Below, in pieces: positions 33,190-44,433 of a DNA stretch of 47,134 nucleotides. The stretch lies in NCBI GenBank assembly GCA_003696105.1, contig RFGE01000132.1, forward strand, positions 1 to 47,134, given 5' to 3'. The DNA is from Deltaproteobacteria bacterium (GTDB taxonomy: Bacteria; Myxococcota_A; Polyangia; Haliangiales; J016). Both the position numbers and the translations under genes were made by a program. A model generated the notes under the pieces. That model saw only the letters and a program-made list of their open reading frames with translations, was not told the DNA's origin and ran no database searches. Numbering within the stretch: position 1 is the stretch's first letter; each line of letters starts with the position of its first letter.

Positions 33190-36100
33190 ATGGCCGAGTA
33201 CGAGCAGTACCTTGCGACCCTCGACTCCGATCCGAACGACGAGGCGGCGCTGCGCGCGCTCGAAAGCCTCGACAACGGTGAGCTCGATACTCCAGAGGCG
33301 GCGGTGGCGCTCGAGCGGGCGCGCGCGCAGCTGCGCGAGCGCGGGGAACTCGAAGTCGTCGCGCGGTTGTTCGACGTGGAGATCGCTGCGGTAGGGGATC
33401 GCGCCCGCAAGGCCGATCTGCTGCTGGCGAAGGGCAAGCTGTACGCCGACGACCTGCTCAATGAGCAGACCGCGGTCGAGTGTTTTCGGCAAGTGCTCGC
33501 GCTGCGCCCGGAGGACGCCGACGCCAGCGAGACGCTCGCGCAACTCGACCTGGTGCGCGACAACTGGCGCAAGATCGCCGACAAGTACGTCGACGAGGCG
33601 AAGGCGTCGACGGACCGTCAGCTCACGACGTCGCTGTACCTGTCGGCCGCCGAGATGTGGGCGCGCTACGAGCCGGAGTCGGACCAGGTCGAACGGTATC
33701 TGCGGAAGGCGCTCGAGGTCGAGCCGCGCAACCGGCGCGCGGCGTTGCACCTCGAGCGGCTGTTGCGGCGGGCCGGCCGCTGGCAGGACCTGGCGGCGCT
33801 GCTCGAGCAGCGCGCCGACGCCGCGGCCGTCAAGGAAGAGCGCAGCCAGGCGCTGCTGGCGCTCGCCGATGTCGCCAAGACCCGCCTGAACGACCCGCAG
33901 CTCGCCATCGACTGCATGAAGAAGTTGGTCGCCCAGGACCCGGCCCATCCGCGGGCGCTCGCGATGCTGGCCGACCTGTACGAAAAGGAGCAGAACTGGT
34001 CCGCGCTGGTGATGCTGTATACCAATGCGCTCAAGGCGCGGCGCCGCAGCGTCGACACGGAGCCCGAAACCGGCATCCTGCTGCAGATCGCGATGCTGCA
34101 CTGGAAGCGGCTCGGCAACCCGGACGCGGCCGAGGAGTACTTCCGCCGCATTCGCAAGGCGGAGCCGGGCCACCCCGCGGCGCTCACGTTCTATCGCGAG
34201 TACTACACGGCGCGCGGCGAGGCGGCCAAACTCGTGCAGGTTCTGCGGCAGGCGCTCAAGGCGACCGCCGACGACGACCTCCGCCGCGACCTGTCGATCG
34301 AAATCGCGCGGCTGTCCGACTCCGAGCTGGCGAACGCGGACAAGGCGATCGAGGCGTGGAAAGGCGTGCTGCGGCGCGAGCCGGACAACGCGGAGGCGCG
34401 CGCCGCGCTCGAGCGGCTGTACCGCGCGACCGAGAAGTGGAACGCGCTGCTCGACCTGATCAAAGACGAGATCGATCGACTGCCGCCCGACGATGTCGAC
34501 CGGCGAGTGAGCCGACTCGAACAGGTCGTCGAGATCTACCGAGATCGGCTGCATCTCGACGTCATGGTGATCAACACCTACAACACGATCCTGCAGCTCC
34601 AGCCCGGCAACCGCGCCGCGCTCGACGCGCTGGCCGCCAAGTACGAGCAGCTCGGCCGGTGGAACGACCTGATCGCGGTGTGGGCGCGCATGGCCGAGTT
34701 GCCGGATACGCCGTCGGACGAGCGCGTCGAACTGCTGCGCAAGACGGCGTCGCTGTGGGCGGATCGGTTCGGCAACTATGCGCAGGCGATCAAGCCGCTC
34801 GAACAGCTGCTCGAACTGCGCCCGGAGGACCGGGACGCGATCGCGAAGCTCAAGGAGATCTACGCGCGGCGGCGCCAATGGCGCGCGCTCATCCGGTTGA
34901 TGGAGCGCGAAACGCAGCTTTTGCCCGCCGACCAGCGGCGCGCGCACCTGGTGGATATCGCGCGGCTAGCGTCTGACCGGCTCGGCGATCCGGCGCTGTC
35001 GATCGGCGTGTGGAATCGTGTGCTCGAACTCGACCCGGACGACGCGGAGGCGCTCGAGTCGCTCGCGCACCTGTACGAACGCAACAAGCGCTACCTGGCG
35101 CTCGCCGAGGTGCTGCACCGGCAACGCGCCGCGATCGGCGACACCGATCCGGCGGCGGCAATCGGCGTCCTCGAACGCCTCGGTGCCGTGTACGCCGAGC
35201 GGCTCGGAGCGGCGGACCAGGCAGTGCCGGTGCTGCGAGAAATCCTCGCGCTGGATCCAGGGCACGCGCGGGCGCTGCGCCAGCTGCGCGAACTGCTCGT
35301 AGCGGCCGGCGACGCCGACGCGCTCGAGGCGCTGTACAGGGACGTCGGCCGGTTCGACGAACTGGTCGACGTGCTGTCGGGACTCGCCGACCGGGCGGAG
35401 GGGGACCGCAAGCTGGCGTTGCTCGAGCGCACCGCCGCGATTGCCGAGCAGCACGTCGCCCATCCCGAAAAGGTCGCGCGCGCCTACGAGCGGATCCTCG
35501 CGGTCGATCCCGCACACCGCCGGGCGGCCGCCGCGCTCGTGCCGATCTACGAGCGAACGCAAAAGTGGGCGCGCCTGCTGGCGATCTACGAGGTGCTGCT
35601 GGGTCACGCGACTGACGTGGACGAACAGTTGCGGCTGCATCTCGCGATCCGCAAACTCGCCGAGGAACGCCTCGGCTCGAAGGCGCTCGCGTTCCAGTGG
35701 GCGGCGCGCGCATACGAGTTGGCGCCGGCGGATGCCGCGTTGCTCGAAGACCTCGAGCGGCTCGGCGCCGAGGCGGACGCATGGCAAGAGGTCGCGGCGG
35801 TGCTCGACCGGCGGCTGCAAGCGCAGGATCTGCCCGACGACGAGCGGCTGCGGCTGTTGCGCGAACTCGGGACGATTGCGTCGACGCGGCTGCACCGCCC
35901 CGACGACGCGCGCCGGTACTACGAAGGCGTGCTGGCGATCGCGCCGGACGACGAGGCGGCGATCGCGGCGCTCGAGCGGCTGTTCGCGGAGCAAGGCCAG
36001 TGGCGCGACCTGTTGGACGTCTACCGCCGGCGGGTCGCGCTGACCGACGACGACGGCGCGCGGCTGGACCTGCTGTTCAAGATCGCGTTTCTCGAAGAAG

Positions 36101-44433: not shown

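Follow-up and report, generated by a model that had tools for sequence, protein, structure and literature searches.

Sequence evidence for a tandemly duplicated 13-unit block behind the LEPLY spacing of a giant TPR protein of Myxococcota

Introduction

The window analyzed here, a stretch of 47,134 nucleotides, encodes a giant protein built of TPR units, some of which are lengthened around a LEPLY motif and return every 3, 4 or 5 units. The locus raises the question of what this spacing records. An earlier note on this DNA had proposed a super-unit of about four repeats and a higher-order pattern not described before. In M. xanthus, the glt cluster encodes GltI/AgmK, a giant TPR protein of 4,132 amino acids without signal peptide or TM segment (PMC3169522), a large scaffold which, together with its partner GltG, links AglQ to MreB (PMC13104615). 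GltI is among the least understood parts of the myxobacterial gliding machine, in which a giant scaffold has been proposed to couple moving motors to MreB.

Results

A giant protein made of double-TPR units

The ORF at 33190-44433 (+) encodes an all-TPR protein of 3,747 amino acids with about 49 units of 72 residues, each corresponding to two TPRs. Its reading frame is matched by the GC content by codon position over the whole length and its orthologues align with it end to end, both of which indicate a real gene. The gene also contains antisense ORFs, the longest of 2,007 amino acids; they are explained by the 72% GC content and were set aside. Pfam returned essentially TPR-type matches alone (TPR_7 with 140 bits, TPR_8 with 139 bits and others over cut-off) and no other domain. 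These profiles and the four helices per 72 residues modeled by AlphaFold2 (AF2) place the giant in the TPR repeat superfamily, and its best sequence relatives in the PDB are designed TPR arrays and OGT. By inspection, the N-terminus MAEYEQYLATLDSDPNDEAAL shows neither a signal peptide nor a hydrophobic stretch, and no membrane stretch was seen in the protein. The giant scored 219.8 bits against the XrtA/PEP-CTERM TPR lipoprotein PrsT (TIGR02917), below the curated cut-off of 312.2, and the PrsT lipoprotein signal was absent by inspection. The window's genome contains 122 matches to one TPR family; a plasmid search was empty.

Units were delimited by a wrap-around profile alignment written for the purpose, which converged on a 72-residue unit with the consensus ALERLYRAAGRWAELADVLERRLDAADDPDERAALLLRLADLYEDRLGDPDAAIAAYRRVLDLDPDDARALA and gave about 49 units where 48 had been counted previously. 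Autocorrelation of the protein showed peaks at 72, 144, 17 and 89 residues.

Seven units carry an insert ending in LEPLY

Seven units contain an insert of 17-19 residues ending in LEPLY. To follow it, an HMM was built from five insert sites and searched separately in each of 44 family members, i.e. the giant and 43 relatives, sampled from its own order outwards to distant classes of the phylum Myxococcota. The sites are listed below with the number of proteins in which the HMM matched and, where modeled, the AF2 result.

36427..36483 (+), residues 1080-1098: insert 1, LLLPVY, unit 16; the most divergent; HMM 28/44
37363..37419 (+), residues 1392-1410: insert 2, ILEPLY, unit 20; HMM 44/44
38512..38568 (+), residues 1775-1793: insert 3, VLQPLY, unit 25; HMM 42/44; extra helix in AF2
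39439..39495 (+), residues 2084-2102: insert 4, VLEPVY, unit 29; HMM 44/44; extra helix in AF2
40360..40416 (+), residues 2391-2409: insert 5, ILEPLY, unit 33; HMM 42/44; extra helix in AF2
41488..41544 (+), residues 2767-2785: insert 6, ALEPIY, unit 38; HMM 38/44; extra helix in AF2
42193..42249 (+), residues 3002-3020: insert 7, ILEPLY, unit 41; HMM 44/44
35533..35748 (+), residues 782-853: unit 12, an insertless LxPxYE unit (ALVPIYE), 13 units before unit 25; HMM 38/44

All seven long units of the earlier note were recovered, with motifs at residues 1093, 1405, 1788, 2097, 2404, 2780 and 3015 and spacings of exactly 312, 383, 309, 307, 376 and 235 residues, and its division of the units into two length classes is supported. 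Its figure of about 17 extra residues holds for six units, but the first, divergent insert has about 19. It had placed the motifs only in the middle, at residues of about 1090-3020; an eighth LEPLY-like motif was found at residues 782-787 (ALVPIY), in a unit that has no insert.

The motif residues L, E, P and Y are among the best conserved positions (0.93-0.98 at insert 4); conservation of the insert units as a whole, at 0.47-0.56, is not raised and stays within the range of the other units. When 28 genomes of the phylum were searched with a profile of the insert unit, matches fell almost only in frames of 2,895-4,193 amino acids, i.e. the giants, the two exceptions being a 1,070-residue frame adjoining a giant and a weak match in a frame of 1,693. 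In the window's genome, all eight matches were in the giant. Comparison of the insert with its own surroundings gave a best self-shift of 17 residues (0.23; the next being 13, with 0.19), which is suggestive, but no more, of an origin by copying of the preceding helix.

Insert placement is conserved across Myxococcota

The relatives measure 3,682-3,909 amino acids, share 28-57% identity with the giant and align with it over most or all of its length. In the closer ones, all seven inserts occupy the same alignment columns. When the seven best HMM matches of each relative were considered, 273 of 301 fell at the eight homologous sites, against a random expectation of 16% (8 of 49 unit positions), which excludes chance placement. 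Native spacings were also tight among the relatives, with a median of 308 residues between units 25 and 29 (IQR 307-310) and of 234 between units 38 and 41. The alignment of orthologues that had been suggested as a check therefore places the inserts at homologous sites, and their placement is conserved in an ancient paralogous family as well. An artefact of alignment or chance was ruled out by the independent detection in each orthologue and by the paralogue.

Of 113 genomes drawn evenly from the phylum, 63 had a match to the N-terminal 537 residues of the giant at 1e-15, a count which includes paralogues. The C-terminal part of the second giant family described below was matched at 1e-60 in 53 of them, the shorter third family included. 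Families without the giants mostly keep GltG-like genes. Neither giant is present in about half of the Myxococcota genomes sampled; nearly all have GltG-like genes.

The spacing follows a 13-unit block

To compare units with each other, a profile was made for each unit from the 44 proteins, the average unit was subtracted and offsets of 2 to 20 units were examined. The strongest similarity was found at offset 13, with a mean of 0.058 versus -0.020 for shuffled units (sd 0.018; corrected p=0.0003), and it persisted when the insert units and each following unit were left out (p=0.002). The offset-13 diagonal stayed positive from pair 12/25 through pair 26/39 and took values of about zero or below on either side. 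The blocks delimited in this way are the following.

35533..38499 (+), residues 782-1770: block copy A, units 12-24; from the offset-13 diagonal and the paralogue diagonals
38500..41475 (+), residues 1771-2762: block copy B, units 25-37; from the same two sources
41476..41964 (+), residues 2763-2925: start of a partial third copy, units 38-39; diagonal positive at pairs 25/38 and 26/39, about zero thereafter

As judged from unit profiles, one block of 13 units, about 990-1,000 residues long and with LEPLY sites at 4+4+5, occurs in two copies, as units 12-24 and as units 25-37. The series 4, 5, 4, 4, 5, 3, or 4, 4, 5, 4, 4, 5, 3 when unit 12 is counted, is explained by this 4+4+5=13 block present twice and followed by a partial third copy, in which insert 7, in unit 41, comes one unit short of its expected position. 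A higher-order evolutionary repeat is thus present, as the earlier note had supposed, but the super-unit is one of 13 units, the best offset, and not of about four. Offset 4 reached significance (p=0.0006) yet fell short of 13, and was rejected as the main period; the signal at offset 5 disappeared once the insert units were removed. The giant itself is a TPR protein of known kind. The 13-unit super-repeat architecture is undescribed: our searches of the open-access literature found no description of it.

A second giant family contains the block once

A second giant, 3,353 to about 4,200 amino acids long and with C-terminal sequences like LYSISEEYFAVRxxxGLTIG, occurs in many of the same genomes. 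The insert HMM found five sites in it at spacings of 306, 308, 376 and 234 residues, i.e. 4, 4, 5 and 3 units as in the last five sites of the 3,747-residue giant, and the first of them is of the insertless unit-12 type. Comparison of unit profiles gave two diagonals, units 2-26 of the second family resembling units 2-26 of the giant and its units 12-29 resembling units 25-42, with abrupt limits at units 12 and 26/27. These two diagonals indicate that the second giant has the 13-unit block once and the 3,747-residue giant twice. The register suggested by BLAST (W 379 versus L123 536) was misleading and was settled by the unit profiles. Units 12-15 of the second family are slightly closer to copy A and units 16-22 mostly closer to copy B. 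This pattern of affinities could point to a deletion by recombination in the second family rather than to a duplication in the giant, but the divergence of units 16-17 of copy A weakens that reading.

By these profiles the two giants are paralogues over most of their length. The 3,747-residue protein lies outside the clade of the GltG-linked giant and forms its own orthologous group, with the N-terminus MAEYEQYLATLDSDPND and close variants. Local identity between the two families is 25-30%, and members of the GltG-linked family mostly share 30-58% among themselves.

Genes of the second family adjoin a GltG-like protein, a CglF-like protein and a TPR lipoprotein. The GltG-like gene was found within a few kb in twelve genomes (G071, G012, G080, G037, G067, G046, G112, G107, G032, G061, G008 and G013); the GltG matches do not reach the equivalog cut-off, CglF narrowly misses its own (87.9 vs 90), and GltJ was not found beside the second family. 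Given these neighbors, the second family is probably GltI/AgmK or a direct relative, an assignment made by synteny and size only.

The GltG homologue of the window's genome is on another contig (G000:C208:371-2671), at the contig end, so that the giant expected beside it was not recovered in the assembly. Another locus of this genome, G000:C219, was rejected as GltI as it belongs to a shorter third TPR family of 1,630-1,940 amino acids (G000:C219:53046-56174, with similar loci at G071:C153, G080:C29 and G046:C1). This third family shares the C-terminal 1,058 residues of the GltI-like giant and, in the window's genome, has no insert units by profile.

The inserts are modeled as extra helices

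Residues 1699-2853 of the giant were modeled with AF2 from 41 sequences (mean pLDDT 90, pTM 0.39). This pTM is too low for the global shape to be trusted and only local structure was read. A plain unit consists of four helices of about 13, 14, 18 and 14 residues, and every LEPLY insert covered by the model, four in all, forms one extra helix of 14-17 residues that contains the motif. In three of the four cases the helix before it is shortened to 10-11 residues. In the model, therefore, LEPLY units are five-helix units in which the extra helix precedes a TPR's second helix. When the corresponding region of the second family was modeled (pLDDT 89.6), an extra helix was again seen at each of its four inserts. 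Between successive insert helices there are 17, 17 and 21 helices in the giant and 17, 21 and 13 in the second family, always 4n+1. Fold comparison returned IFT139 (TTC21), Ski3 and Ctr9 as best matches, with poor global superposition (TM 0.1-0.2).

Gene neighborhood of the giant

The genes flanking the giant are listed below.

31253..33040 (-): ABC transporter half (membrane + ATPase), divergent neighbor upstream of the giant
29439..31250 (-): the pair's second gene, again an ABC transporter half
44433..44912 (+): small ORF of 159 amino acids with no family, overlapping the giant's stop by one base (the A common to its ATG and the TGA)

The ABC pair is conserved next to the giant in 14 loci within the order; in other lineages an aminotransferase adjoins the giant instead. 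The giant is not in a glt cluster by gltG (or gltJ) but adjoins the ABC pair, an OMP and a HEAT protein, and no glt-like genes were found within its neighborhood. The small ORF starts with a hydrophobic stretch followed by a cysteine and looks lipoprotein-like. Also in the window are a hybrid histidine kinase with PAS, HisKA, HATPase, two receiver domains and a GGDEF-like domain (26860-29319, -) and a 1,038-residue ORF whose residues 608-794 form a trypsin-like domain (19330-22446, +).

Discussion

We favor, as a reading somewhat better than even, that the giant is a cytoplasmic scaffold paralogous to GltI and that its spacing is the fossil of a block duplication, frozen by a strong constraint on length. 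The protein is an all-TPR solenoid of nearly fixed length across Myxococcota, and the 4, 4, 5, 4, 4, 5, 3 series records a tandem 13-unit block present twice with a partial third, held across the sampled classes. With no signal peptide or membrane stretch seen, it would reside in the cytoplasm and, by analogy with GltI, may serve as a long scaffold that keeps several partners a set distance apart. The cytoskeleton and an inner-membrane protein of the GltG type may be among these partners, and the LEPLY units would be distinctive sites along the scaffold.

The inserts themselves may be passengers of a unit-wise and block-wise amplification, retained only because a packed solenoid suffers from any alteration, and their spacing would then have no structural role. 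We regard this as plausible, if somewhat short of an even chance. The block duplication alone accounts for the 4, 4, 5 order and for the same pattern in the paralogue, units without insert carry the offset-13 signal too, insert units are no better conserved than others and unit 12 manages without an insert; however, L, E, P and Y rank with the best conserved positions and insert units are nearly confined to the giants. This conservation would suit functional kinks or docking sites, as the earlier note had suggested, arranged about once per superhelical turn of 8 TPRs as a row of equivalent sites. A TPR superhelix has 7-8 TPRs per turn, and four units amount to 8 TPRs plus one helix; the constant 4n+1 helix count fits this too. 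Yet the spacing is uneven (3, 4 or 5 units), unit 12 is insertless and the models have a pTM of 0.38-0.39, and we consider such sites rather unlikely. A stronger version, in which an undescribed second intracellular giant of Myxococcota, paralogous to GltI, serves as a molecular ruler or track element, with LEPLY units about once per superhelical turn as equivalent sites that dock motor or envelope partners and the 13-unit block as the functional period, appears to us improbable.

The neighborhood invites another view, that the giant is a large TPR adaptor of the usual sort, connected with the divergent ABC exporter pair or with maintenance of the envelope, its link to gliding being one of ancestry only. 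The conserved ABC pair and the lack of glt-like genes nearby speak for it. Against the favored reading, neither the ABC exporter pair and HEAT-repeat protein nor the aminotransferase found elsewhere gives a functional link to gliding. On the other hand, the giant keeps its length in lineages where the aminotransferase is the neighbor, and we hold this role to be unlikely.

The analysis provides a domain grammar for these giants, with double-TPR units, five-helix LEPLY units and a 13-unit block, common to two paralogues. Length and insert placement fixed across much of a phylum are unusual for repeat proteins. Laboratory-strain constructs lacking a whole block or a single insert helix become rational to design, and the findings point to an unstudied second scaffold besides GltI.

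The closest known system is GltI (AgmK, MXAN_4863) of the Agl-Glt gliding machinery, which is likewise a TPR giant of about 4,000 amino acids with no signal peptide or transmembrane segment (PMC3169522). Unlike the GltI-like family, the present giant has a second 13-unit block, lies outside the glt cluster and constitutes an orthologous group of its own. With the canonical TPR superhelices (OGT, CTPR designs) it shares helix pairs of the 34-residue type, but differs from them by its 72-residue double TPR, its unequal helices (13/14/18/14), its periodic five-helix units and its 49 units. Ski3, IFT139 (TTC21) and Ctr9 are also long irregular TPR arms that organize complexes; they are eukaryotic and shorter, and the comparison with them is one of fold. 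Super-repeats of small modules in a long rod are known from muscle, where titin has blocks of 11 domains and nebulin blocks of 7 modules. Their folds are unrelated to that of the giant, and their blocks come in many copies fitted to a filament period, whereas the giant contains two and a part.
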